Assembly (NCBI RefSeq): GCF_900172325.1
Contig: NZ_FWFR01000002.1
Coordinates: 806,001 to 870,000 of the forward strand
Direction of reading: 5' to 3'
Source of the DNA: Oceanibacterium hippocampi
Lineage (GTDB): Bacteria > Pseudomonadota > Alphaproteobacteria > Sneathiellales > Sneathiellaceae
DNA: 64,000 nucleotides
Positions 5,386-60,039 of the stretch are shown here, piece after piece. Numbering within the stretch: the first letter of the stretch is position 1; every line of letters starts with the position of its first letter. A program made the translations under genes and the position numbers. Under the pieces are notes generated by a model. That model did not search any database. It was not told where the DNA came from and saw nothing but the letters and a program-made list of their open reading frames with translations.

Positions 5386-5812
5386 AGCACAACTCCCCCC
5401 GTTGCGGCCGCAGACAATGATCGAAAATCTCGTTAAAATTGAAGATCACTGCTGCAATTATTCTTTTGTTTGTACTTTCGATTATTTTTCGTTTTCTCTT
5501 CTCGCGCCATTTGGGTAACGCGAACGACTCCTTTCACCATGTTTTTCTAAAGTGTGTCGGCAAACGGCGGGAATGACAATATCCGGATTTGATCCGCAGG
5601 CCGGCCGGTAGCAACCGGACAGCGACTTGAAACGATTTCGGCCACTTGCCGGGACGAACACCGGCTATCGCGCCTGATCAAAGATTATGCACATCCCCGC
5701 CGGGACGTTTGTCAATTGCTTGACAGACAGGCGCGCCGCCCTGGCCAAGAGTGCCGGTCAGATACGAACCGCATCCATCCGAGCCGATACCCGTACGAAA
5801 GGCGACGACACC
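5386..5812. other. 427-bp divergent regulatory region
   Basis: No convincing gene lies between the Crp/Fnr start (5385, minus) and the chosen GTG start of the acyl-CoA synthetase (5813, plus). The part around 5420-5520 is visibly AT-rich (runs such as TTCGATTATTTTTCG) and is the likely promoter zone for the regulator. The operator-like inverted repeat at 5710-5725 lies in the right-hand part. An ATG at 5687 opens the synthetase frame early. That would put the operator inside the coding region and add about 42 unconserved residues. Confidence 0.6.
5710..5729. promoter_or_regulatory. Candidate operator 1: TGTCA-N6-TGACA, shared with 9575
   Basis: Perfect inverted repeat with 6-bp arms TGTCAA and TTGACA around a 4-nt centre (5710-5725), followed by GACA. 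The 19-nt string starting at 5711 recurs at 9576 with a single mismatch. Half-sites of 5 bp separated by 6 bp are the geometry used by Crp/Fnr-family dimers. It lies about 90 bp before the synthetase start and next to a divergent Crp/Fnr gene. Function is inferred; the repeat and its recurrence are seen directly. Confidence 0.6.
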
Positions 5813-7945
5813 GTGTCCCTGTCCAACTCAGCCGACATAGAGTTGCGCGCGCTTCTGGAGCCGCGCTCGATCGCCATCATTGGCGCCTCCGCCGACCGAG
5901 GGAAAAACTCGGGCCGACCGGTGCATTTCCTGCACGAGCACGGTTACGAGGGTGAGGTCTTTCCGGTCAATCCGAAGTACGACGAGATCCTCGGCTGGAC
6001 CTGCTATCCCGATATCCAGGCGGTCCCGAAACCCGTTGATCTGGCGGTCGTCGTCGTGCCGGCCGTTGCCGTTCCCGAAGTGGTCAGCGCGGCGGCGCGC
6101 TGCGGGGCGCGGAGCGCGCTGATCATTTCATCCGGTTTTGGCGAAATCGGTGGAGACGCGGCGGCAGCGGAGCGGGAGATGATCGCCATCGCCCGGCGCC
6201 ACGGCATGCGCGTATGCGGTCCGAACTCGACCGGCCTGATCAATACCGAGAACCATCTCGTCACCACCATCAGCCAGGCGGCGGACGGCATGGCGGCGAC
6301 CCCCGGCGGACTCGCGCTGGTCAGCCAGAGCGGCAATTTCGGAACCTTCATGATCGACCTCGCGATCGCCCGGCAGATCGGCGTCTCGCATTTCGTTTCC
6401 TCGGGCAACGAGGCCGATCTGGGCTTCCCGGACTATGCCGCGTTCCTGCTCAACAACCCGAAAGTCGATGTGATCGCCGGCTACATCGAATCGATCCGCG
6501 ATCCGTTCCGCCTGCGCGAAGTCGGACAGATGGGCCTGAATGCAGGCAAACCGATCGTCATCGTGAAAGTCGGTCGCACGGCCTCCGGCGCGCGCGCCGC
6601 TCTGTCCCACACCGGCGCGATCGTCGGCGACGACGCACTCTGCTCGGCAATGCTCGAACAGAGCCGGATCCTCCGCGTCGAGACCGAGGAAGAGCTGCTC
6701 GACGTTCTCCCGATGCTGTTGAACAAGCGATTGCCGTCGGGTCGACGGGTTGCCGTGCTGTCGGTTTCCGGTGGTGGCGCGACCATGGTCGCCGACGCCT
6801 GCGAGGCGATGGGCCTCGACGTGCCACCGCTGGGTGAGACGACAATGGCCCGGCTGCGTGAGGCTGTTCCCTATTACGGTGCCGTGACCAACCCGGTCGA
6901 TCTGACCGGACAGGTGATGACGACGCGCGGCAGCGTCGGCCATTGCCTGGACGCGGTCGCGAACGACGACGACATCGACGCGACCATCCTCTTCCTCGGC
7001 ATGATGCAGAAGAACGGCGAGCAGATCGCCGATGAAGTCATCGCCTGCGCGGAGCGCAATTCGAAAGCGTTGATCGTTTCCTGGGTCGATGGCCCGGCCG
7101 GGCCGATTGCCCGACTGCGCGAGGCCGGCATCTGCGTGACCACGGCGCCGGCGCGCGCCGGCGCGATCGCCCTGAGTCATGCTGTACGTTACGCGGAATG
7201 GGCCGGCCTGGCGGAGCCTCGCGCACGCCTGAAGACCGTGGTGCCAACCGAGACCGTACATCCCGGAACCGGGTCGACGGATCCGGCAAGGGGCCGTGAA
7301 CTCGTTGCCGCTCTCGGCATCCCCCAGCCGCGCAGCAGGACCGTCTCGACGGCGGAGGACGCCGTGCAAGCCGCGGAGGAAACCGGTTACCCCGTGGTCG
7401 CGAAGCTCGCCCATCCCGTTGTCGCGCACAAGACCGAGGCCGGCGCGGTCCGGATCGGCCTCCGAACCGCCGGAGCCGTCCGCGAGGCTTTCGAGCATAT
7501 GGCCGATGTCGGCCGCGGGCTCGGGGCCGAGAAAGTAGTCGTCACGGTGGAGCAGCAGATCGCCGCCGGCACCGAAGTGATCGTCAGCGTGCGGCGGGAT
7601 CCGCAATTCGGGCCGGTCCTCAGCGTCGGCCTCGGCGGCATCTGGACCGAACTGCTCCGGGACGTCGCCGTCGGCGTGCTCCCGATGACGACGGCCGATA
7701 TCGAGGCGATGTGCCGGCGCATACAGGGCGCCGCCATTTTCGACGGCTATCGGAGCCAGCCGGCGGTCGACCTGCCCTTCGTGGTCGATGTCCTGCAGCG
7801 GCTCGGCGACGCGGCCCTGGCCGAGCCGTCGCTGTCGCTTCTCGAGATCAATCCGTTGATCGTGCACGAAGCCGGGAACGGTGGCGTCGCCGTCGACGTG
7901 CTGATGGCGTCGGACGGGACCGCACCCGATGGAAGCGGCTCGTGA
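5813..7945 (+). CDS. NDP-forming acyl-CoA synthetase (acetate--CoA ligase family), fused alpha-beta type
   Basis: From the GTG at 5813 the protein has 710 residues. Order of domains: CoA-binding Rossmann domain (IAIIGAS near residue 20), succinyl-CoA-ligase-like domains, then a C-terminal ATP-grasp domain. ALSHTGAIVGDD carries the conserved phospho-histidine position of ADP-forming acetyl-CoA synthetases, and VVAHKTEAGAV carries the second conserved His of the ATP-grasp part. It would convert an organic acid to its CoA thioester with ATP or GTP. The GTG has AAAGG upstream. An ATG at 5687 gives a longer frame but overlaps the operator. It is the first gene of an operon with two MaoC-like proteins and overlaps the next gene by GTGA. 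Confidence 0.85.
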   Translation: MSLSNSADIELRALLEPRSIAIIGASADRGKNSGRPVHFLHEHGYEGEVFPVNPKYDEILGWTCYPDIQAVPKPVDLAVVVVPAVAVPEVVSAAARCGARSALIISSGFGEIGGDAAAAEREMIAIARRHGMRVCGPNSTGLINTENHLVTTISQAADGMAATPGGLALVSQSGNFGTFMIDLAIARQIGVSHFVSSGNEADLGFPDYAAFLLNNPKVDVIAGYIESIRDPFRLREVGQMGLNAGKPIVIVKVGRTASGARAALSHTGAIVGDDALCSAMLEQSRILRVETEEELLDVLPMLLNKRLPSGRRVAVLSVSGGGATMVADACEAMGLDVPPLGETTMARLREAVPYYGAVTNPVDLTGQVMTTRGSVGHCLDAVANDDDIDATILFLGMMQKNGEQIADEVIACAERNSKALIVSWVDGPAGPIARLREAGICVTTAPARAGAIALSHAVRYAEWAGLAEPRARLKTVVPTETVHPGTGSTDPARGRELVAALGIPQPRSRTVSTAEDAVQAAEETGYPVVAKLAHPVVAHKTEAGAVRIGLRTAGAVREAFEHMADVGRGLGAEKVVVTVEQQIAAGTEVIVSVRRDPQFGPVLSVGLGGIWTELLRDVAVGVLPMTTADIEAMCRRIQGAAIFDGYRSQPAVDLPFVVDVLQRLGDAALAEPSLSLLEINPLIVHEAGNGGVAVDVLMASDGTAPDGSGS

Positions 7946-8352
7946 CCGTCCCCCTGCTCGACTACGGGCGGATCGCGATCGGAGAAATCTACGCCGATCG
8001 GGAGATCGTCGCGACCGCCGAACAGGTTGCCGGATATGGCCACGCCGTGCGCGCGGCCGCCGGGTTGCCGGAACGGGACGACGACGGCATGTCATTTCTT
8101 CTCCCGGCGAGCTGGGCGATCCCGCGTGTCTCGTTCACCGACTGGCGCGTCCCCGGTGGCGGGATCCACGCCCGGCAGTCGTGGAGGAACAGGCTTCCGG
8201 TCCGGATCGGCGACCGCCTCCGGTTGCGCACGACCGCAATCGGCAAGTACGAACGGAACGGTCGCCGCTATGTCGAGTTCGCCGCCGATCTCCGGCGCGC
8301 AGACGGCCAGTCGGTCGGCGACGGCGTCCTGACCATCGCGTGGCCGGCATGA
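7942..8352 (+). CDS. MaoC/hotdog-fold protein
   Basis: 136 residues starting at a GTG that overlaps the synthetase stop (GTGA). The frame extends upstream, but that part is antisense-like shadow of the synthetase. Length and the pattern of a central helix (residues about 20-35) with beta-rich flanks (IPRVSFTDWRV, VRIGDRLRLRTTAIGKYERNGRRYVEF) fit a MaoC-like hotdog subunit. It lacks a clear hydratase Asp...His motif. It may therefore pair with the next protein as the non-catalytic half of a two-subunit enoyl-CoA hydratase, as in other paired small MaoC proteins. That pairing is inference. Confidence 0.6.
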   Translation: MTVPLLDYGRIAIGEIYADREIVATAEQVAGYGHAVRAAAGLPERDDDGMSFLLPASWAIPRVSFTDWRVPGGGIHARQSWRNRLPVRIGDRLRLRTTAIGKYERNGRRYVEFAADLRRADGQSVGDGVLTIAWPA

Positions 8353-8777
8353 CCTCGGCCCCGTCCCTCCCTCCCGCGCGGCTTGACCCGCATGCCTGGA
8401 TCATCACCCAAGCGCAGATCGAACTTTACGGCAAGGCGGCGGGCGCGGACGACCCGATCCACATGGACCCGGTTGCCGCGAAGGAGACGCCGCTTGGCGG
8501 GACCATTGCCCAGGGCATGCTGGTGCTGGCCGTCATGGGAGAATACGTGGCGGCCCGGATCGCAAGCCCCGCTGTCTGGATTGCCGGAGGTGAACTCGAT
8601 GTACGCTTTCGACGCCCCGTCCGTCCCGGAGATCGGCTGACCATTCACGCCACGAAGGCGGATCAGGCGTCGAACGGCGCCGCCGGTGCGGCGACATACG
8701 AGATCTGGTGCGAGAACCAGCATGGAGACCATGTCGTCGCGGGCCAGGCGCATATCCCGCTCGACGGATTCCGGTAG
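8349..8777 (+). CDS. MaoC-family (R)-specific enoyl-CoA hydratase-like protein
   Basis: 142 residues, ATG overlapping the previous stop (ATGA). It carries the hydratase-2 signature: YGKAAGADDPIHMDPVAA, with the catalytic Asp and His of the DxxxxH pair in place. The following segment reads IAQGM instead of the usual IAHGM. This is the catalytic partner expected beside the preceding small hotdog protein. It probably adds water to an enoyl-CoA made from the acid activated by the upstream synthetase. The overlaps across three genes indicate translational coupling. Confidence 0.82.
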   Translation: MTSAPSLPPARLDPHAWIITQAQIELYGKAAGADDPIHMDPVAAKETPLGGTIAQGMLVLAVMGEYVAARIASPAVWIAGGELDVRFRRPVRPGDRLTIHATKADQASNGAAGAATYEIWCENQHGDHVVAGQAHIPLDGFR

Positions 8778-8782
8778 TCCAG

Positions 8783-9553
8783 GTGCCCAACGAGATCATC
8801 GTCATTCTCGCCATGCAAGCGGCGATGCTGCTCGCCGCGTTTCTCCAGTCCGTGACTGGGATCGGCTTCGGCCTGATCGCGGTGCCGATCCTTCTGATCG
8901 CCCTGCAGGGAGGCTCGGCGGTGCAGGTCGCCATCGTGCTCAGCCTCCTGGTCTGCATCGTCATGTCGACGTCGCTGTACAAGCTGGCGGATCGTCCGGT
9001 TCTGCGCGATCTGGTCTATGGCTCGATCCTCGGTTTGCCGGTCGGCATCTGGCTTTTCTCGGCCATCGACATCCTGACCCTGAAGGCGGTGGCGGGGATC
9101 ACGACTGTGCTGATGGCGCTTCTCGTCGCCGTTCGAAGCTCGCTTCGGCCCTGGCATCTGCTTACCACCCTCGGGCGCCCCGGCTATGTGGGGGCCGGTA
9201 TCCTTTCCGGGGTCATGAGCGCGGTTCTCGCCATGCCGGGGCCGGCGGCGGTAACTCATCTCGCGGCCACCGGCTTCGACAAGGACGCGACGCGGGCAAC
9301 GAGCCTCTCGCTTCTTGTCCTCTCGCACGCAGCCGCCCTTGCCCTGCAGGCCGGCTTTGTCGGCATTTCCGCGGAAACGGCCATGACGTGCCTCTGGCTC
9401 GCGCCGGCGACCATCGCCGGAACCTTCATCGGGCGCAGCGTCGCGGCTTATGTGCCGACGCGGCAGTTCAGCTGGGCCCTGGTCGTCATTCTTCTCGTCA
9501 CCGGTTCCTCGATGCTGCTCGCCGTCACGCTCGGCGATCAACTGCCGCGTTAA
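8783..9553 (+). CDS. TauE/SafE-family membrane transporter
   Basis: 256 residues from a GTG start 5 bp after the previous stop. The protein is almost entirely hydrophobic, with about seven to eight predicted membrane segments, and has the family's opening pattern (MLLAAFLQSVTGIGFGLIAVPIL). Members export or import sulfonates, sulfite or small organic anions across the inner membrane. It is the last gene of operon A, so it may move the substrate or a product of the CoA pathway. Substrate is unknown. An upstream in-frame start near 8708 is less likely because it would overlap the MaoC gene widely. Confidence 0.85.
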   Translation: MPNEIIVILAMQAAMLLAAFLQSVTGIGFGLIAVPILLIALQGGSAVQVAIVLSLLVCIVMSTSLYKLADRPVLRDLVYGSILGLPVGIWLFSAIDILTLKAVAGITTVLMALLVAVRSSLRPWHLLTTLGRPGYVGAGILSGVMSAVLAMPGPAAVTHLAATGFDKDATRATSLSLLVLSHAAALALQAGFVGISAETAMTCLWLAPATIAGTFIGRSVAAYVPTRQFSWALVVILLVTGSSMLLAVTLGDQLPR

Positions 9554-9574
9554 AGCGGCGGGCGGGGCCCGGTT

Positions 9575-9594
9575 GGTCAATTGGTTGACAGACA
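9575..9594. promoter_or_regulatory. Candidate operator 2, overlapping a -35 box
   Basis: GTCAA-TTGG-TTGAC (9576-9589) followed by AGACA. This repeats the site at 5711 with one mismatch in 19 nt. The right arm contains TTGACA (9585-9590), a perfect -35 hexamer, with TATCCC 15 bp downstream (9606-9611) as a possible -10. Start codons of the next gene are at 9636 or 9642. The repeat centre would sit about 35-42 bp before the transcript start, which suits either class-II activation or repression by a Crp/Fnr-type dimer. Confidence 0.6.
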
Positions 9595-9635: not shown

Positions 9636-10448
9636 GTGGAAATGAAACGGAACGGAACCTTGGCAAAATCGGATCTGTCGATCAGCGAGGAACATGACGG
9701 GCGGCTCGTCCGCGTCGTGATCGCGCGACCGGAGCGGCGTAATGCGCTCAGGGCACAGACCTTCCGCGAGTTGTTCGCGCTGTTCGACCGTCTGCGGTCG
9801 GATGCCCGATGCACCGTCCTGACGATCACCGGCGGCGGCGATCGGGCGTTCTGCGCCGGCGCCGACATCGAGGAAATCTCCGGGCTGGAACCGCATGAAT
9901 TTCGTGCCTTCTGCCAGAACACGATCGAGCTTTACCGCCGCATGCGTGCCCTTCGGCAAATCGTCGTCGCCTCGGTCAACGGCGCGGCATACGGGGCCGG
10001 CTGCGCCCTCGCCATGGCTTCGGACCTGGTCATCGCCGACGCGCGCGCGCGCTTCGCCCAGCCCGAGATAAGGGTCGGCATCCTTGGCGGCTCCGCGCTG
10101 CTGCCGCGACATCTTTCGAACCCGCGCCTCGCCGCCGAGATGGTCCTGACCGGACGGTCGATTTCGGCGGACGAGGCCGAACGATACGGCCTCGTCAACC
10201 GCGTCACATCAGCCGACGGGCTCACCGCCGAAACCGACGAGATGATCGCGACGCTGCTCGCCCTGCCTGCTGGCGCGCTCGCCCTGGCCAAACAGGCGCT
10301 GGTTCGCGGCGACGCCGTCCCCGATGCGATCGCGGCCTTCGAGATACAGCAGGACCTTGCCACGGCCGCTTTCGCGCTGCCGGAGCGGGCCGAGCGCATG
10401 CAGGCCTTCCTGTCACGAACCGACGACCGACCGAAGGCCCGCGGCTAG
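9636..10448 (+). CDS. Enoyl-CoA hydratase/isomerase (crotonase) family protein
   Basis: 270 residues from the GTG at 9636; an ATG at 9642 is equally possible. Crotonase landmarks are FCAGADIEEISG (CoA/oxyanion loop) and NGAAYGAGCALAMASDLVIAD, then FAQPEIRVGILGG. In classic hydratases two glutamates act, one in GGGCELA and one in the PEI segment. Here the first is Ala (GAGCALA) and only the second is kept, so simple hydration is doubtful and another crotonase reaction is possible. It is the first gene of operon B, directly behind the operator at 9575, and leads into an ABC importer. Confidence 0.87.
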   Translation: MEMKRNGTLAKSDLSISEEHDGRLVRVVIARPERRNALRAQTFRELFALFDRLRSDARCTVLTITGGGDRAFCAGADIEEISGLEPHEFRAFCQNTIELYRRMRALRQIVVASVNGAAYGAGCALAMASDLVIADARARFAQPEIRVGILGGSALLPRHLSNPRLAAEMVLTGRSISADEAERYGLVNRVTSADGLTAETDEMIATLLALPAGALALAKQALVRGDAVPDAIAAFEIQQDLATAAFALPERAERMQAFLSRTDDRPKARG

Positions 10449-10513
10449 AGCGGACGCCGGACGGACCGATGTTTCATCAACGCCACGACGTCAGTACAAA
10501 CCGGAGAAGCAAG

Positions 10514-11329
10514 ATGCCCTCCCCCAGCAGTGAAGCGGTCCATCGGAGCGCCAAACGGGACATCGTCGTCGATCGGGTGCACAAGGTATTCGGCGCCGGA
10601 GAATCCGCAACCACGGCCCTCGACGGGATATCCTTCCAGATCGAGGACGGCGAGTTCATCAGCCTGATCGGCCCGAGCGGCTGCGGCAAGACGACCCTGC
10701 TGTACATGATCGCGGGCTTCCACACGCCGAGCGCCGGCGAAGTGCTGGTAAGCGGACAACCGGTAACAAGCCCGGGCGCCGATCGCGGCATGATGTTTCA
10801 GGAATACTGCCTGTTCCCCTGGCTGACGGTTCAGGGAAACGTCGAATTCGGATTGCGGATCAAGGGGATCGCGAAATCCGAACGGCACGAGATCGCGAAC
10901 AGCCACATCCGTCGGGTCGGGCTCGACGGCTTCCAGAACCGCTACCCGCACCAGCTCTCGGGCGGCATGAAGCAGCGCTGCGCGCTCGCCCGCTGCTTCG
11001 CGAACGACGCGAACATCCTGTTGCTCGACGAACCGCTCGGCGCCGTCGACGCGATGACCCGGGAAGAGCTGCAGGACGAGATCCAGGATATCTGGTGGGA
11101 CGATGACAATCGCCGCCGCAAGACGGTCGTCAACGTCACCCATTCGATCGACGAGTCGGTATACCTGTCCGACCGGATCATCGTGATGTCGCCGCGCCCC
11201 GGGCGCGTCCGGGAGATCATCGAGATACCCTTCGAACGTCCGCGTCGCCCCGAACTCCGGTTCGAGCCGGAATACCAGCGCTTCGTCGCCTACGTTCACG
11301 ACCTGCTCAAGTCCTTCAAGGGGCACTGA
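10514..11329 (+). CDS. ABC importer ATPase (nitrate/sulfonate/taurine type)
   Basis: 271 residues from the ATG at 10514, which has GGAG 7 nt upstream; an in-frame ATG at 10469 is less supported. It has Walker A GPSGCGKTT, Q-loop MFQEYCLFPW, signature LSGGMKQRCALARC and Walker B ILLLDEPLGAVDA. The sequence resembles SsuB/TauB-type ATPases that energise uptake of sulfonates, nitrate, pyrimidine precursors or other small anions. Its permease (12157) and binding protein (13092) follow, separated by a hydrolase gene. All are on one strand and end at a shared terminator. Confidence 0.92.
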   Translation: MPSPSSEAVHRSAKRDIVVDRVHKVFGAGESATTALDGISFQIEDGEFISLIGPSGCGKTTLLYMIAGFHTPSAGEVLVSGQPVTSPGADRGMMFQEYCLFPWLTVQGNVEFGLRIKGIAKSERHEIANSHIRRVGLDGFQNRYPHQLSGGMKQRCALARCFANDANILLLDEPLGAVDAMTREELQDEIQDIWWDDDNRRRKTVVNVTHSIDESVYLSDRIIVMSPRPGRVREIIEIPFERPRRPELRFEPEYQRFVAYVHDLLKSFKGH

Positions 11330-11373: not shown

Positions 11374-12120
11374 ATGAGCCGTTACACCATCCATCCCCTT
11401 TGCGTCGGCGCGATCCACAATTTCGAGAAATCGACTCTCACCTATCTTGGCAATGTCGGCACCAAGGTCTCGATCCCGCTGATCATCTGGGCCATCGTCG
11501 GTGAAAACCGCGTCATCCTGATGGATTCCGGCCCGGACGATCCCGCCTGGGTACGCGCGAATCTCGACCGGGTCGTCGAGCGCGAACCCGGCATGGATCC
11601 GGTGTCCGCGCTGGCGCGCATCGGGATCGCCGCGGACCAGATCGACACGGTCGTGATCAGCCATCTCCACTGGGACCACAGCGGCAGTCTCGAACTGTAT
11701 CCGAACGCCGAAATCCTGGTGCAGCGTGAGGAGCTGGCCTATGCCAACTGCCCCGCGCCCTGCTTCTGCCGGACCTACGCGGCGCCGATCGGCGGCCATT
11801 CGCCGAGCTGGCATCGGGTGGCCCGGCGCATTCGTCCGGTGACCGGCGATTTCACCCTCGCTCCTGGCATCGATGTCCTGCATCTGCCGGGCCATTCGCC
11901 CGGAATGCAGGGCCTGTCGGTCGCCACCGCGAACGGTCGCATCGTGCTCGGCTCGGACACCTTCAATCTTTTCGAGAATTTCGAACAGGGCGTGCCGCCG
12001 ACCATTCACACCGATATCGACGCATGGTTCCGGTCGCTCGAACGGGTGCGGGCGATCACCGATACCGTGCTTCCCGCCCACGACATGAAAGTGCTGGAGA
12101 GAGCCTCGTATGGGGCCTGA
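11374..12120 (+). CDS. Metallo-beta-lactamase-fold hydrolase, AHL-lactonase-like
   Basis: 248 residues with a complete dinuclear zinc set: HLHWDH (the HxHxDH motif), a His in LHLPGHSPGM, Asp in LGSDTF and a final His in PAHD. The closest recognisable architecture is the N-acyl-homoserine-lactone lactonase group. Embedding between ABC transporter genes suggests it opens a lactone, ester or similar bond in the imported compound rather than quenching quorum signals. No signal peptide is seen, so it is probably cytoplasmic. The exact substrate is unknown. Confidence 0.85.
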   Translation: MSRYTIHPLCVGAIHNFEKSTLTYLGNVGTKVSIPLIIWAIVGENRVILMDSGPDDPAWVRANLDRVVEREPGMDPVSALARIGIAADQIDTVVISHLHWDHSGSLELYPNAEILVQREELAYANCPAPCFCRTYAAPIGGHSPSWHRVARRIRPVTGDFTLAPGIDVLHLPGHSPGMQGLSVATANGRIVLGSDTFNLFENFEQGVPPTIHTDIDAWFRSLERVRAITDTVLPAHDMKVLERASYGA

Positions 12121-12156: not shown

Positions 12157-13029
12157 ATGTCGTCAGCGACCAACGAGGCAGACATGACAAGACCGGAACG
12201 CGACGAGATAGCCGGACCGAAGGGGTCCGGAAAGGACGCCACCGGTCTGTTTGCCCGGCTGATGCGCCAGCAGGTCTATCTCTACCTGGTTCTGCCGCTC
12301 AGCGTGCTGCTTCTCTGGCATGTCACGGCTGCCCACACGGACCTGTTTCCACCGGTTCTGCTGCCGACGCCCTGGAAGGTCGTCGTGTCCGGCATGGCGA
12401 TGATCGAAAGCGGCGAACTGCTGAGTCACATCCGGATCAGCCTCGGCCGCATCCTGACAGGCATGGCATTCTCGGTCTGCCTGGCCCTGCCGCTTGGCGT
12501 GTTCATGGGCCTGTCGCGCAGGTTCGAGAAGATCGCCGACGGCCTGATCTCGCTGATCCGCCCGATCCCGCCGTTGGCCTGGCTGCCGCTCGCGGTCCTG
12601 TGGCTTGGCATCGGCAACGCGACGGTCGTCTTCATCACCTCGGTCGCCGGTTTCTTCGTGATCCTCGTGAATACGATCGCCGGCGTGAAAGGGGTCGACC
12701 AGGTGCTGATGCGGGCGGCGATGTCGCTTGGCGCGAAGGGCAGCGCGCTGATATTTCGCGTCGTCCTGCCGGCCGCGATCCCGGCCGTCATCACCGCGGT
12801 TCGGGTCGCCGTCGGCATTTCCTGGATGAGCATCGTGGCGGCCGAATTCGTCGCCGCCTCCGATGGCCTCGGCTACCTGATCACCTTCTACCAGGACGTG
12901 CTCCGGACCGACATCGTCATCGTCGGCATGTTCACCATCGGCGCGCTCGGCATCTCCATGGATGTGCTGCTGCGTCGCCTGGAACACTTCCTCGTGCCCT
13001 GGCACGAGGGTGTGAAGGTCGGTCGTTAG
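12157..13029 (+). CDS. ABC importer permease (SsuC/TauC-like)
   Basis: 290 residues. A polar N-terminus of about 40 residues is followed by about six membrane segments. The EAA-type loop that contacts the ATPase is seen as AAMSLGAKGSALIFRVVLPAAIPAVIT-like sequence around residues 187-212. The start has AGGAGG 7 nt before the ATG. It would form the membrane channel for the ATPase at 10514 and the binding protein at 13092. Together they make a complete importer interrupted only by the MBL-fold gene. Confidence 0.92.
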   Translation: MSSATNEADMTRPERDEIAGPKGSGKDATGLFARLMRQQVYLYLVLPLSVLLLWHVTAAHTDLFPPVLLPTPWKVVVSGMAMIESGELLSHIRISLGRILTGMAFSVCLALPLGVFMGLSRRFEKIADGLISLIRPIPPLAWLPLAVLWLGIGNATVVFITSVAGFFVILVNTIAGVKGVDQVLMRAAMSLGAKGSALIFRVVLPAAIPAVITAVRVAVGISWMSIVAAEFVAASDGLGYLITFYQDVLRTDIVIVGMFTIGALGISMDVLLRRLEHFLVPWHEGVKVGR

Positions 13030-13091: not shown

Positions 13092-14354
13092 ATGAGAATG
13101 GGAACGAAACTTGGAAGCCGCTTCGGGCAGGTCCTGAGAACCGTCGGCGTGCTGGGGCTGATCGCCGCCGCGCTGCCGGCCCAGGCTGCCACCGAAGTGC
13201 GGGTCGCCTGGCTGGTCGGCCCGAACACCCCGCTGAGCGTGACGCTCGTCGAGGAGAAACTCTTCGAGAAATATGCCAAGGAGGCCGGCTACGACGTCAC
13301 CGTCGAATGGCACAAGGGGATGAGCGGTCCGCCGGTGAGCCAGGCGCTCGCGGCCGACCGCCTGGATTTCGAGATGGGGACGTCGGCGATGCCGCTTTCG
13401 TCGCGTCTCCAGGCCGGTATCGCGGCCATTCCGATCGGCATTGCGGCGACCCACATCAGCAACGCGGTGCTGGTCAGGCCGAAGGGCAAGACCGACGTGA
13501 CGTCGATCGCCAAGCTCGAGGGCAAGACCGTCGGCACCTTCATCGGGACCGCCGCGCATTACGTGCTGGCCGCCGGCGTGATGCTCGAAACCGGCAAGTC
13601 GCTCGATGAGGCCGGGATCAAGCTGATCAACGTCAAGCCCGCCGAATGCGTCAAGATGCCGGAGATCATCGACGCCTGCGCCACCTGGCCGCCGTTCCGC
13701 TATTTCGGCCCGCAGACCGGCCTGTCCTCGCTGCTGTTCGATGCGGATGGCCGCTACGGCGAAGGCCACGAGAACGCCGGCGGACGTTCGGCCGATGTCG
13801 CCAAGTCCTGGGCCGCCCCGTCCGGCTTCATCGCCGACTCGCTGCATCTCTCGGTTCGCGAGGCCTTCATGGACGAGCATCCGGATCTCGTCGTGGCCAT
13901 GCTGCTCGCCGTCTGGGAGGCGGTCGACCGCATTTCCACCGACCGGGAACGGTCGATCGAGCTGGCCGGTCCCCATTGGGGCCTGCCGCGCGAGGTCGCG
14001 GAAAAGGTCATGGACACCGCCGGCGAGCCCGCCGGCGTCCGCAACGCGCCGATCATGCTGGAAAGCGATGCGCTGGCAATCATCAAGGCGTCCGAGTTCA
14101 TGGAGCACGCCAAGATCGTCGACAAGGCGATCACCTGGGAGGAGTTGATCACGATCCTCCGAAAGGGCGCCGCGATGCAGAAGCTCGCCTGGGAGAAACG
14201 CGGCGGCAAGCCCTCGGTCGACGAGCTGCTGGCCGGGTTCAAGGGTGAATCCGCGACCTTCGGTACCATCGAGCTGCAAGGCGGCGCGCCGATCTGGATG
14301 ATCGACGACGTTGCCGACTGGGGCCGGCGCATGTACAAGCCCGGTCCCTTCTAG
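13092..14354 (+). CDS. ABC importer substrate-binding protein (NrtA/SsuA/TauA type)
   Basis: 420 residues from the ATG at 13092; a much longer in-frame extension upstream overlaps the permease and is rejected. A signal peptide is clear (basic MRMGTKLGSR, hydrophobic VLGLIAAALP, cleavage after AQA). The body has the periplasmic-binding fold of aliphatic sulfonate/nitrate binding proteins. GTFIGTAAHYVL and a strip of Ala/Gly around 130-170 fit the ligand domain. It is the last gene of operon B, 23 bp before the terminator hairpin. It would capture the compound handled by the operon enzymes. Confidence 0.88.
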   Translation: MRMGTKLGSRFGQVLRTVGVLGLIAAALPAQAATEVRVAWLVGPNTPLSVTLVEEKLFEKYAKEAGYDVTVEWHKGMSGPPVSQALAADRLDFEMGTSAMPLSSRLQAGIAAIPIGIAATHISNAVLVRPKGKTDVTSIAKLEGKTVGTFIGTAAHYVLAAGVMLETGKSLDEAGIKLINVKPAECVKMPEIIDACATWPPFRYFGPQTGLSSLLFDADGRYGEGHENAGGRSADVAKSWAAPSGFIADSLHLSVREAFMDEHPDLVVAMLLAVWEAVDRISTDRERSIELAGPHWGLPREVAEKVMDTAGEPAGVRNAPIMLESDALAIIKASEFMEHAKIVDKAITWEELITILRKGAAMQKLAWEKRGGKPSVDELLAGFKGESATFGTIELQGGAPIWMIDDVADWGRRMYKPGPF

Positions 14355-14377
14355 GGGGCCGACCACGGACGAATACG

Positions 14378-14411
14378 GACGCGCCGGGGGATCTCCCCGG
14401 CGCGTCTTTTT
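14378..14411 (+). terminator. Rho-independent terminator of operon B
   Basis: GACGCGCCGGGG (14378-14389) pairs perfectly with CCCCGGCGCGTC (14395-14406) around a 5-nt loop and runs into TTTTT (14407-14411). It follows the binding-protein stop by 23 bp. It is the clearest intrinsic terminator in the window and marks the 3' end of operon B, before the convergent amidase operon. Confidence 0.93.
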
Positions 14412-19761: not shown

Positions 19762-20445
19762 TCAGCTTCCGGCGCCGACCCATTCGATCACCAGTGCGCG
19801 TGTGCGCAGAACATGATCCTTCATCGCCTTGCCGGCGCGTTCGTGATCGCGCGCTGAAAGAGCGGCGATGATATCCTCATGCTGCTGGACGTTCTCGTCG
19901 AGCAGGCGCGGCGGCATCCGGGACGCCAAAGACATCACCCGCGAAACCACGTTGCCCTGCATCTCCGAGACGAGATCCTTCAGCATCTCATTGTGACAAG
20001 CGTCGCAGATGACATCGTGAAATCGCGCGTTGTGGAGGACCCAATCGATGTCCTTGGCATCCGGGTCATGGACGATCAGGGTGCGCGCATAATTCTTCTG
20101 GTGAAACCGCAAGGCCGTCAGGTCCTCGTCGGTGATCCAGTCGACGGCCAGACGTGCGGCCAGCCCCTCAAGTTCGGCCCGTATCTCGAAAGCCTCCTTG
20201 ATCTCCCTCAGGTTCGGGACGACGATCTTGGCGCGACCGGATGAAGTGACAGAGATCGCGCGCTTCGCCTCGAGGAAACGCAATGCCTCGCGGACCGGCG
20301 TCCGGCTGATGCTGAACTCTTTCGCGAGGGAGTTCTGACTGAGCGTATCGCCGGGCCGGTAATGACCGCTCTTGATCCGTCGGAGGATCTCGTCGGCGAT
20401 CTCGGTTGACGATCGGAAACCAGTATCTTCGCCGTGAGTCTTCAT
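19762..20445 (-). CDS. GntR-family regulator, FCD class
   Basis: 227 residues from the ATG at 20445, which has AAGGA 7 nt upstream; a longer frame to 20676 lacks conserved sequence. An N-terminal winged helix (about 8-75, NSLAKEFSISRTPVREALRFLE) is followed by an all-helical FCD ligand domain (about 85-220) with metal/ligand-type residues in DWVLHNARFHDVICDACHN. It lies upstream of and on the same strand as the cupin-TRAP-amidase operon, 250 bp away, and probably controls it. FCD regulators usually respond to the organic acid being catabolised. Confidence 0.9.
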   Translation of the reverse strand: MKTHGEDTGFRSSTEIADEILRRIKSGHYRPGDTLSQNSLAKEFSISRTPVREALRFLEAKRAISVTSSGRAKIVVPNLREIKEAFEIRAELEGLAARLAVDWITDEDLTALRFHQKNYARTLIVHDPDAKDIDWVLHNARFHDVICDACHNEMLKDLVSEMQGNVVSRVMSLASRMPPRLLDENVQQHEDIIAALSARDHERAGKAMKDHVLRTRALVIEWVGAGS

Positions 20446-20641
20446 GTGCACGTCCTTATTTGCGGCGAAACCGGTTGCGCACCCTACGCCTTGACTGTCC
20501 GCATGAACAGTTCTTCCATGGCTCGCGATATAGTACGCCCCGGTCCGGAGGCACAAGGCCCGGCCGACAACCGCAAATTGGTGCACCCTCGATATCGCCC
20601 GGGTACGATTGGCGAGCGATCGAACCTGGTGGAGACACAGC

Positions 20642-21034
20642 ATGGACCGATTCACCGGCGGTTGCCTGTGCGGCAACGTCCGTTTCGTGGCGACGGGACT
20701 GCCTTACCGGGTCGGCCTCTGTCACTGTCTCGACTGTCGCAAGCATCATGGCGCGCTGTTCCACGCTTCCGCGATATTCCCCGAGGATGCGGTGACGATC
20801 ACGGGCGACGTGCACGACTACCGCGGTCGGTTCTTCTGTCCCCGCTGCGGCTCGTCCGTCTTCGCCCGCAGCGCCGACGAGATCGAAGTCAACCTGGGCT
20901 CGCTCGACGCGCCCGACCAGTTGACGCCCACCTATGAAAGCTGGATCGTCCGCCGCGAATCCTGGTTGCCGCCGTTTCCGCTCACGAGACGATACGACCG
21001 GGATCGCGACGCATCGGGTCGCTCCGAGACATAG
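20642..21034 (+). CDS. GFA-family (glutathione-dependent formaldehyde-activating enzyme-like) zinc protein
   Basis: 130 residues with the family's zinc ligands: GGCLCGNV at the N-terminus, CHCLDCRK around residue 33 and CPRCGS around residue 72. The name comes from formaldehyde-glutathione adduct enzymes, but most members have no proven activity. It starts at an ATG with GGTGGAG upstream and is divergent from the GntR gene, about 200 bp between starts. Substrate and role are unknown. Confidence 0.88.
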   Translation: MDRFTGGCLCGNVRFVATGLPYRVGLCHCLDCRKHHGALFHASAIFPEDAVTITGDVHDYRGRFFCPRCGSSVFARSADEIEVNLGSLDAPDQLTPTYESWIVRRESWLPPFPLTRRYDRDRDASGRSET

Positions 21035-45451: not shown

Positions 45452-45715
45452 GGCCATCCGGTCCCGCGACAGCACAAGGACACGTCCTTTCACGGACGGG
45501 TCCCCGAGACGACAGGGCGTGCGCCGGCCAGGCGGGCGCCCTGTTCGTTCCAGGCTTTCAATTTCGACGCCAACGCACCGATCCTTGGCGACCGCCACGT
45601 CGTCCACGACGTCGCCGGTCCTCTGAACTTCTTAGGTCCGCTACATGTCTGGCGCAATTGCTTGAGCACGACCCCATATGCTGGGAATATCGGGTTCACT
45701 CAGATGGGATAGCAG

Positions 45716-46579
45716 ATGCAGCGCATTCTCCTGGCGACGGACTTTTCCGAGCGCTCCGATCGAGCGGCCCGGCGGGCGACGCTCCTGGCGAAGACGACCG
45801 GCGCTTCCCTGGCTCTCGTGCATGTCGTCGATGACGACAGGCCAAAGCGGATCTTCGAGGCAGAACAACGGGCCGCCGAGGCCCTGCTCGCGGAACAGGC
45901 GCGGTCCTTCCGGGAAATCGACGGACTGTCCTGCACCTCCCGGATCGTCATGGGCGATCCGTTCGAGGGCATAGCAGCGGCAGTGCGCGAGACCGATGCC
46001 GACCTCCTGGTTGTCGGGCCACACCGTCGGCAGGTGCTGAGAGACGTGTTTATCGGCACCACCGCGGAGCGCACCATTCGTGCCAGCGAACGGCCTGTCC
46101 TGATGGCGAACGGGGTCCCCGCGGGCCCCTACCGGCATGTACTTGTCGCCGTCGACCTGTCCGAATGCTCAGCCACAGCGATACGCGCGCTGCAGAAACT
46201 CGGGCTTGGATCGAAATGCGTCGTTTCCGTGGTTCATATTTTCGATGCTCCCGCGGCCAGCCTGATGGTCCGTGCGTCCTCGACCAAGGAGGGGATCAGG
46301 AACTATCTGGAAGACGAGAAAGAACGGGTTTCCGGCGAACTGGCGGCATTCCTGAATGACATCGGCCTGAAGCCTAAGCGGCGGATCCTGAAGCACAACG
46401 AAACGTCGATTGCGCACACCATCGCCGCGACGGTTCGCGAGGCAAATGCCGACCTTGTGGTTGTCGGCACGGTCGGCCGCACGGGCGTCGCAAAGGTGCT
46501 GTTGGGCAGTGTGGCGGAAAAGGTCTTGCGACGGGCAGACTTCGACATACTGGCAGTACCGCCCGTTCGCGAAACCTAG
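45716..46579 (+). CDS. Universal stress protein with two Usp domains
   Basis: 287 residues made of two tandem Usp domains (about 1-140 and 141-285). The second has a complete G-2x-G-9x-GS ATP-binding pattern (VVGTVGRTGVAKVLLGS). The first has Arg in place of the second Gly (VVGPHRRQVLRDVFIGT), so it may not bind ATP. It is a cytoplasmic stress-tolerance protein by family. It has its own 264-bp upstream gap after the TRAP operon. Confidence 0.92.
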   Translation: MQRILLATDFSERSDRAARRATLLAKTTGASLALVHVVDDDRPKRIFEAEQRAAEALLAEQARSFREIDGLSCTSRIVMGDPFEGIAAAVRETDADLLVVGPHRRQVLRDVFIGTTAERTIRASERPVLMANGVPAGPYRHVLVAVDLSECSATAIRALQKLGLGSKCVVSVVHIFDAPAASLMVRASSTKEGIRNYLEDEKERVSGELAAFLNDIGLKPKRRILKHNETSIAHTIAATVREANADLVVVGTVGRTGVAKVLLGSVAEKVLRRADFDILAVPPVRET

Positions 46580-57303: not shown

Positions 57304-60039
57304 TCAGGCTTCCTGCTTGCGAAGCAGCATGGCCGCGAGGGCCCAGAAGAGCAGGCAGAATCCCGCCAGCACCAGGTGATTGGGATAGAGGGTGGCGAGA
57401 TCGAGACCCTTGTTGAAGACGCCGGCGCTGATCTGCTGGAAATAGAGCGCCGGAAAACTCTGCCCGGTCAGCGCCGCGCCACCCTCGAGAGTCGAGACCG
57501 GATACATCATCCCCGAGAGGTTGACCGTCGGCACCATGACCACAATCGCGGTCGCGAAGATCGCGGCAATCTGCGAGCGCACGAATGTCGAGACGACGAG
57601 GCCGAAAGCGGTGGCCGCGGTCGTGTAGAGCAACGCGCCGAGGCTTAGCGCGAGGAAGCTGCCCGGCATCCCGATCCCGAACACGGTCAGCATCAGGACG
57701 ACAAGACTGCCGAAGCTCGCCATCGCGACGGCGACATAGGGCAACTGCTTGCCGAGCAGGAATTCGATCTTGCGCACCGGAGCGGCGTACAGATTGAGGA
57801 TCGAACCCATTTCCTTCTCGCGAACCACGCCCAGCGCGGTCAGCATCGCCGGTATCATCATCAGCAGCATCATCAGCACGCCCGGCGGAATGGCATATTG
57901 GGAGCGGAAGGCCTGATTGTAGCGGAACCGGGGTTCGACGGTCGCCGGGTAGAGGCTCGGCACGACGCCCGATTCGCGCATCGATACATCGGAGAGATGG
58001 GATATCAGCGCGCCCTGAAGATAGCCGCGCCCTGTCTCGGCCCGGGTCGTGTTCGAACCGTCGAGCCATGCGCCGATCTCCGGCGCCCGTGCGGCCAGAA
58101 GATCGCGACCGTAATCCGGTGGAATGACAACCGCGAGCGAGATCTCACCCGCCTTCATGCGGCGATCCAGTTCGGCGAAATCGGCGATCGGCGGCTGTTC
58201 GTCGAAATAGCGGGAGCTCGACAATGCATCGAGGAACATCCGGCTTTCCCGCGAGCGATCCTGGTCCAGCGCCGCGTAGGTGAGATTCTCCACATCGAAG
58301 GTGATGCCATAGCCCATCGCCAGCATGAGGATCACCGGACCGACGAGCGCGAAGCCGAGGCGGATCGGGTCGCGCAGGATCTCCGTCGCCTCGCGGCGCG
58401 CGAAGGCCCAGACGCGCGGAGCCGACAGCAGGCCACCCCCGGACCGGCGGTCTAGCGCGGCCTCCGGCAACTCGAGCAAGCCGGGCGCGGTCGCATCGTC
58501 CGCGCTGGCCTCCGCCAGACGGGCGATGAAAGCCGCTTCGAGCGTCACTGCACCACCTTCCCGACGGAGCGCGTCCGGCGCGCCCTGGGCCAGGACTTTC
58601 CCCGCATGCATCAGCGAAATGCGGTCGCAGCGTTCCGCCTCGTTCATGAAGTGCGTCGAAATGAAGATCGTCACCCCGTCGTTTCTCGACAGGTCGATGA
58701 GCAGGGCCCAGAAGGCGTCACGGGCGATCGGGTCGACGCCGGAGGTCGGCTCGTCGAGAATCAGCATCTCGGGTTCGTGCAGGACCGCGACTGCGAGTTG
58801 CAGGCGCTGACGAACGCCAAGCGGCAGACTTTCCGGGGCCGCATCCGCCACATCGCGCAGATCGAACCGCTCGATCAGTTCCTCCACCCTGGCGGCGCGG
58901 CGTCCGCGTGGCAGATGAAAAAGGTCGGCGTGCAGCGCCAGGTTGCGGCGGACCGACAGCTCGGAATAGAGCGAGAAGGATTGCGACATGTAGCCCACGC
59001 GACGGCGTACAGCCATTGCATCGGCGCCGACCGGCTGGCCGAACAGCCATGCCTGCCCCTCGCTCGCCGTCAGCAGGCCGGTCAGCATCTTCATTGTCGT
59101 GGTCTTGCCGCAACCGTTGGAACCGAGGAAGCCAAATATCTCGCCGGGCTCGATGCGGAAGCTGACGTGATCGACGGCCGTGAACTTGCCGAAGCGCATG
59201 GTCAGCCCCTCGGCCTCGATCGCGGGCGGGCCATCCCGGGCGATGCGCGGCGGCAGCACGACGGGCTTGTGCCCCTCTCTCTCCGCTTCGGGCAGGAGGG
59301 CGATGAACGCCCCCTCGAGGCTATCGGTGCCAGCCTGCGCTTTCAGTTCTCCGGGCGTGCCGGTCGCGAGGACGCGGCCGGCGTTCATGGCGATGAGATG
59401 CTCGAACCGCTCGGCCTCGGACATGTAGGCGGTGGCGGTGATCACGCTCATGCCCGGGCGGCGCAGGCGGATGCGGTCGATCAGGTCCCAGAACTGCTGC
59501 CGGGAGAGTGGATCGACACCGGTCGTCGGCTCATCGAGAACGAGCAGGTCCGGATCGTGGATCAGCGCACAGCAGAGTGAAAGCTTCTGTTTCATCCCGC
59601 CGGACAACTTCCCGGCAGGTCGGTCGGCAAAGGGCGCCAGACCGGTGGAGTTCAGCAGGTCGGCGATACGCGCCGCCCGCTCCGCCGCCGACTGGCCGAA
59701 GAGACGGCCGAAGAAATCCACGTTCTCGCGCACCGACAGCGTCGGATAGAGATTCCGCCCCAGCCCCTGCGGCAGATAGGCAAGGCGGGCAGCGACCCGT
59801 TCCCGATGGCGTCGTTGGCCCATCGGGCCATCGAGCACGTCAACCGAGCCGGTCTGCAGGCGACGCACCCCGGCAATCAGACCGAGAAAGGTGGACTTCC
59901 CGACCCCGTCCGGGCCGATCAGGCCGACCATGCGCCCTGCGGGAATGACGACCGAGACGTCATCGAGGGCGGCACGCCCGCCGTAGCGATGGCTGACACC
60001 GCGCAGCGCGGCAACCGGATTGGCCGGCAGCGAAGTCAC
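57304..60039 (-). CDS. Double ABC ATPase-ABC-2 permease fusion (RbbA/YhiH-like)
   Basis: 911 residues from a GTG overlapping the HlyD stop (GTGA); a start at 60069 is less likely. ATPase domain 1 (about 1-230) has GPDGVGKST, LSGGMKQKLSLCC and LLVLDEPTTGVD. Domain 2 (about 270-500) has GSNGCGKTT and LILDEPTSGVD but the weak signature LPLGVRQRLQLA. The C-terminal part (about 540-911) is an ABC-2 permease with an N-terminal segment and five late segments. RbbA of E. coli, a ribosome-linked ATPase, has this layout, but with HlyD and YhhJ-like partners export of a drug or toxic compound is more likely. Confidence 0.9.
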   Translation of the reverse strand: MTSLPANPVAALRGVSHRYGGRAALDDVSVVIPAGRMVGLIGPDGVGKSTFLGLIAGVRRLQTGSVDVLDGPMGQRRHRERVAARLAYLPQGLGRNLYPTLSVRENVDFFGRLFGQSAAERAARIADLLNSTGLAPFADRPAGKLSGGMKQKLSLCCALIHDPDLLVLDEPTTGVDPLSRQQFWDLIDRIRLRRPGMSVITATAYMSEAERFEHLIAMNAGRVLATGTPGELKAQAGTDSLEGAFIALLPEAEREGHKPVVLPPRIARDGPPAIEAEGLTMRFGKFTAVDHVSFRIEPGEIFGFLGSNGCGKTTTMKMLTGLLTASEGQAWLFGQPVGADAMAVRRRVGYMSQSFSLYSELSVRRNLALHADLFHLPRGRRAARVEELIERFDLRDVADAAPESLPLGVRQRLQLAVAVLHEPEMLILDEPTSGVDPIARDAFWALLIDLSRNDGVTIFISTHFMNEAERCDRISLMHAGKVLAQGAPDALRREGGAVTLEAAFIARLAEASADDATAPGLLELPEAALDRRSGGGLLSAPRVWAFARREATEILRDPIRLGFALVGPVILMLAMGYGITFDVENLTYAALDQDRSRESRMFLDALSSSRYFDEQPPIADFAELDRRMKAGEISLAVVIPPDYGRDLLAARAPEIGAWLDGSNTTRAETGRGYLQGALISHLSDVSMRESGVVPSLYPATVEPRFRYNQAFRSQYAIPPGVLMMLLMMIPAMLTALGVVREKEMGSILNLYAAPVRKIEFLLGKQLPYVAVAMASFGSLVVLMLTVFGIGMPGSFLALSLGALLYTTAATAFGLVVSTFVRSQIAAIFATAIVVMVPTVNLSGMMYPVSTLEGGAALTGQSFPALYFQQISAGVFNKGLDLATLYPNHLVLAGFCLLFWALAAMLLRKQEA

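Follow-up and report, generated by a model that had tools for sequence, protein, structure and literature searches.

The question raised by this locus is whether two copies of a 19-nt sequence, each standing in front of a set of genes, are operators of the Crp/Fnr-family protein encoded beside them. The first-pass annotation, made from the letters alone, had answered that they define a two-operon regulon. In the window (the whole 64-kb stretch of DNA analysed), both copies of GTCAATTGsTTGACAGACA were found in place, as GTCAATTGCTTGACAGACA at 5711-5729 and GTCAATTGGTTGACAGACA at 9576-9594, and the middle of both is CAATTGsTTG. Operator 1 lies between the minus-strand regulator gene and gene set 1, with its centre about 95 bp 5′ of the GTG at which the CoA ligase probably starts; that ORF could also be read from an ATG at 5687, but the operator would then fall inside the gene. 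Operator 2 stands before gene set 2, within an 88-bp gap, separated by 22 bp from the preceding TauE stop and by about 60 bp from the crotonase start that follows. We consider it probable that both palindromes serve the adjacent Crp/Fnr protein as operators and form a predicted two-operator regulon, because of the sites and their positions, the nearly invariant TRQWVT helix of the family, the enrichment of related sites upstream of orthologous operons, the loci with mixed half-sites, the ranks given to both sites by a family matrix, and the Glu found in the helices of the other four regulators.

Table 1. Coordinates (window numbering) of the regulator, the predicted operators and the genes behind them.
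Feature	Coordinates	Strand	Remarks
Crp/Fnr-family regulator, 240 aa	4663..5385	-	GTG start as listed; true start could be further downstream
Operator 1 (predicted)	5710..5725	.	TGTCAATTGCTTGACA, perfect TGTCAA-N4-TTGACA; family matrix rank 4 in window
Operator 2 (predicted)	9575..9590	.	GGTCAATTGGTTGACA, TGTCAA-N4-TTGACA with one mismatch; family matrix rank 3 in window
NDP-forming acyl-CoA synthetase-like protein, first of gene set 1	5813..7945	+	Pfam ATP-grasp_5, Succ_CoA_lig, CoA_binding_2; acetate--CoA ligase models below cut-off
Small protein without Pfam or NCBIfam hit, gene set 1	7942..8352	+	
MaoC-like dehydratase, gene set 1	8349..8777	+	Pfam MaoC_dehydratas
TauE/SafE-family (TSUP) transporter, last of gene set 1	8783..9553	+	Pfam TauE
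Enoyl-CoA hydratase/isomerase (crotonase), first of gene set 2	9642..10448	+	Pfam ECH_1
Nitrate/taurine-type ABC transporter ATPase	10469..11329	+	Pfam ABC_tran; NCBIfam SaoA, taurine and nitrate ATPase models, all below cut-off
Metallo-beta-lactamase-fold hydrolase, lactonase-like	11374..12120	+	Pfam Lactamase_B; AiiA-type lactonase models below cut-off
Taurine/sulfonate-type ABC transporter permease	12157..13029	+	NCBIfam SaoP and TauC models, below cut-off
ABC substrate-binding protein	13095..14354	+	SsuA_fam model below cut-off; start estimated from signal-peptide-like N-terminus
Strong intrinsic terminator-like stem-loop, after last gene of set 2	14377..14407	+	14 pairs, then T run

A near-perfect inverted repeat with Crp-family spacing had been described at both places, and this is borne out: across the 4.83-Mb genome TGTCAA-N4-TTGACA has a single perfect occurrence, at 5710, and two with one mismatch, at 9575 and at C7:640396. 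The 19-mer itself is found perfectly at two places, both in the window, and once more with 2 mismatches, upstream of secA; a reversed control pattern of it gave 0 places in the same genome. When 2 mismatches are allowed in the palindrome, the count is at chance level (17 found against 13.5 expected), so that the evidence rests on the two window sites and their conservation and not on a genome-wide regulon. This GC-rich window also has a fair number of 19-nt near-repeats, with 12 direct and 17 inverted overlapping pairs at no more than one mismatch, among which the operator pair is, by our reading of the ORFs, the intergenic one. Since repeated 19-mers are not unusual and the loose palindrome occurs at chance level, other evidence is needed. 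The long leader that separates the regulator from operator 1 (5386-5709) is partly AT-rich; it contains no CAA-N4-TTG site, and autoregulation is not apparent.

The regulator carries an N-terminal cNMP-binding domain (PF00027, E 8e-16) and a C-terminal Crp-type helix-turn-helix (HTH_Crp_2, PF13545, E 6e-10), both above the Pfam gathering scores. These two domains, a full-length match to the CRP and FNR models and two half-sites with Crp-type spacing liken it to the Crp/Fnr superfamily, whereas its helix signature and its operator are its own and distinguish it from the known members; it scores below every NCBIfam equivalog cut-off. The recognition helix reads S208-R209-Q210-W211-V212-T213, in agreement with the Arg209-Gln210-x-x-Thr213 reported earlier. 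Five Crp/Fnr proteins were found in the genome, and the Arg-Gln helix is present only in the window regulator; the other four have Glu at the Gln210 position within FNR- or CRP-like helices. E. coli CRP shares the domain family and the Arg at the Arg180 equivalent, but its Glu181 is Gln here, and in an alignment with the CRP sequence Glu72 and Arg82 correspond to Thr and Trp while Ser83 is kept. With Thr and Trp at these positions, the usual cAMP contacts are missing. The haem ligands of CooA, the CO sensor of Rhodospirillum rubrum, are Pro2, Cys75 and His77; none is matched in the alignment with the CooA sequence, which agrees with the earlier caution that CooA-type haem sensing is not implied. 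No cysteine occurs among residues 1-150 of the translation, so the N-terminal Fe-S cysteines of the FNR type are absent. The protein sequence gives no support for cAMP, haem or FNR-type Fe-S sensing.

Searches of 60 relatives from the organism's own family returned no orthologue of the regulator, only distant Crp/Fnr paralogues with at best 28% identity. Other Alphaproteobacteria, rhizobial plasmids included, have scattered orthologues at 38-50% identity, and a Cupriavidus plasmid carries one at 36% identity. TRQWVT is found in most of 43 aligned sequences, the exceptions being SRQWVT in the window protein, TRQWVS (L068), TRQWIS (L112, L114), TRQGVS (L115) and TRQSIS (L116); Ser in place of Thr at the helix start occurs in the window protein only. 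The RQWVT subfamily, as delimited here, is recognised by the TRQWVT helix together with a conserved G-G-P-E...H-x-W-S in the sensor domain, and the window protein belongs with it by SRQWVT and GTPE...HVWSG. Uncharacterised orthologues from plasmids of Rhizobium, Sinorhizobium, Bradyrhizobium and Methylobacterium and from several other alphaproteobacterial genomes resemble the window in the TRQWVT-type helix and in having the operator core at two operons. They differ from it in their GCAA half-sites and in their target genes, the nitrate/taurine-type ABC transporter excepted.

The scan of genome and relatives proposed by the first-pass annotation gave a divided answer. The exact TGTCA-N6-TGACA palindrome has 0 perfect occurrences in ten orthologous loci and a single occurrence with one mismatch (L050 15778), which lies outside the regulator upstream region. 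When 5-base palindromic half-sites were counted without guidance in the regulator upstream regions, only GC-rich noise emerged. An early reading of the exact search, that conservation of the palindrome was refuted, was overturned by a CAA-N4-TTG core, first suggested by alignments of rhizobial upstream regions. In the orthologues the palindrome is mostly GCAA-N4-TTGC, often GCAA-YTAR-TTGC, upstream of operons for an ABC transporter and for a flavoprotein and ferredoxin: in the rhizobia the ABC operon is preceded by GCAATTACTTGC and the DUF971-flavoprotein-ferredoxin-HEAT operon by GCAATAAATTGC, and a Methylobacterium plasmid and several other genomes have GCAACTAATTGC or GCAATTAGTTGC. In 33 non-redundant orthologous loci, the window excluded and the upstream windows set by gene-family matches, there are 25 occurrences of GCAA-N4-TTGC in the 32.6 kb upstream against 18 in the remaining 509 kb (odds ratio 22; Fisher p 6e-20, an optimistic value as the loci are related and not independent, and partly post hoc, the core pattern having been spotted in the same loci where it was then counted). 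More reliable than the p value is the roughly 20-fold enrichment together with placement at two operons. The exact form is present in the scored upstream windows of 19 of the 33 loci and absent from 14, some of which have a one-base variant, and GCAA with N4 came top of 1792 exact half-site/spacing combinations by number of loci, the window being included in that count. The comparison of orthologous loci shows, by association of sequences, that the regulator family is linked to a CAA-N4-TTG palindrome at its target operons.

The window sites contain this core but have GTCAA-N4-TTGAC in place of the GCAA-N4-TTGC of the subfamily; the exact sequence GCAAYTARTTGC was not found in the organism's own genome. 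Outside the window, the double GTCAA form occurs at no orthologous locus examined, so that what is conserved is the core and not the exact site. The regulon proposal is supported in its geometry, its placement and its core palindrome, and fails for exact TGTCA sites in the orthologous loci examined. Two loci carry one GCAA and one GTCAA half-site (GCAATTAATTGAC in L070, GTCAATTAATTGC in L071) and so provide a link between the family form and the window form; in L072, GCAATTTCTTGAC stands in an upstream window and GCAACTAGTTGAC at another place in the locus. A rule that TCAA half-sites always follow G was rejected, as it held in 4 of 8 cases only, some of them probably chance sites. A partial literature search, made outside the regulon databases, found nothing on these operator words.

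A matrix trained on the orthologous sites alone, with the window left out, ranks the site at 9576 3rd and that at 5711 4th among about 64,000 window positions. Two positions score slightly higher, 57740 and 45653. The match at 57740 lies inside a 921-aa ORF; the second-best, GCAATTGCTTGA at 45654-45665, precedes an ORF at 45716 by about 50 bp, overlaps other ORFs, and is possibly a third target or possibly chance. The ORF at 45716 reads like a universal stress protein.

The earlier argument for these sites ran through CooA, which has Arg-Gln at the equivalent helix positions and an operator with TGTC...GACA outer bases. The published CooA consensus operator, TGTCGGCNNGCCGACA (PMC545781), however, lacks the CAA-N4-TTG core of the window sites, and the TRQWVT orthologues mostly have GCAA half-sites under nearly the same helix, so Arg-Gln alone is no predictor of TGTCA. 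The CooA argument is a case of a fitting answer, as far as the sequences go, reached by a route that the orthologues do not support.

A rather unlikely alternative is that the palindromes are owned by a different, unlinked regulator (another Crp/Fnr protein, or one of the MarR, TetR or GntR type, e.g. 19762-20676), the neighbouring Crp/Fnr protein controlling something else. This possibility draws on the restriction of the exact GTCAA-N4-TTGAC to the window among the loci examined and on the other regulators of the genome, including the GntR/FCD protein in the window, but the site spacing is of the Crp/Fnr type while GntR/FCD operators have shorter spacing, a matrix built from orthologous loci picks out both sites, and the other four Crp/Fnr proteins found have Glu helices. 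We give very little weight to a second alternative, that the shared sequence is mainly a promoter, a TTGACA -35 with shared flanks, and no operator. The first-pass annotation had placed the second copy on a perfect TTGACA -35; TTGACA is indeed present, though in both copies, and for neither of them did the promoter scan accept a -10 partner. TTGACA followed by GACA is common to both, and the secA upstream match (G000:C16:26151-26169, L003 1501-1519; GTCGATTCGTTGACAGACA) has TTGACAGACA too, but its two mismatches are both in the left half, whereas the window copies also share GTCAATTG, which flanks TTGACA on the opposite side, and the palindrome is perfect at 5710. That secA match has mainly the TTGACAGACA part in common with the 19-mer and looks like a plain promoter, TTGACA being followed 17 bases later by TATCTG. 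A chance repeat, which would fit the near-identical 19-mers and the chance-level loose palindrome described above, is hardly credible with both copies palindromic, placed before gene sets and picked out by a matrix from other loci.

On the preferred reading, that the two sites are operators of the adjacent protein, a dimer of the regulator, switched by a small ligand that may be the substrate taken up or one of its products, would bind both sites. It would thereby control gene set 1, with its acyl-CoA ligase, MaoC dehydratase and TauE-type transporter, and gene set 2, with its crotonase, ABC importer and lactonase-like hydrolase. Together the two sets look like genes for importing a small acid or lactone and degrading it in a CoA-dependent manner. 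Judging from its position, the product of 7942..8352 may be a hot-dog-fold protein that partners the product of the gene after it. Whether control is by activation or repression is a guess, leaning slightly to activation since many Crp/Fnr proteins are activators and neither site overlaps a complete promoter.

A recurrent module at L052, L050, L097, L100 and other loci comprises the regulator, a nitrate/taurine-type ABC transporter, an AprA-like flavoprotein (PRK08275), a small ferredoxin, a HEAT-repeat protein and DUF971; our literature search found no description of it, and the organism's own genome has no close flavoprotein orthologue (best match 26% identity). TauE/SafE-type transporters lie near the regulator in several loci (8783-9553 in the window, L052 3603-4352, L068 9253-9912 and L049 1099-1836, the last assigned by eye from its translation). 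At the orthologous loci examined, the window target genes did not turn up next to the regulator, and a search for their orthologues gave no plasmid matches at the thresholds used; one relative of the substrate-binding protein, at 44% identity (G391), lies in a stretch without regulator or site. As the targets differ from those of the orthologues, the nitrate/taurine-type ABC transporter excepted, the comparison suggests that the regulon has been rewired: in this lineage GTCAA would have replaced the GCAA half-site usual in the family, and other genes would have become the targets. We put at about even chances the fuller proposal that there is a so far undescribed Crp/Fnr subfamily, distinguished by a non-cAMP sensor pocket and by the helix Arg-Gln-Trp-Val-Thr, for which GCAA-YTAR-TTGC is the mark of two operons in many loci, and that here the regulator has been rewired to new catabolic genes with a change of half-site to GTCAA, perhaps helped by the change of Thr208 to Ser.

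The comparison turns a guess from one genome into a testable prediction at the level of the family, covering a Crp/Fnr subfamily, its operator and its recurrent targets. The occurrence of GCAA and GTCAA under almost the same helix would constitute a small natural experiment on specificity change in Crp/Fnr proteins, and the pair is a warning against reading half-sites from two helix residues.
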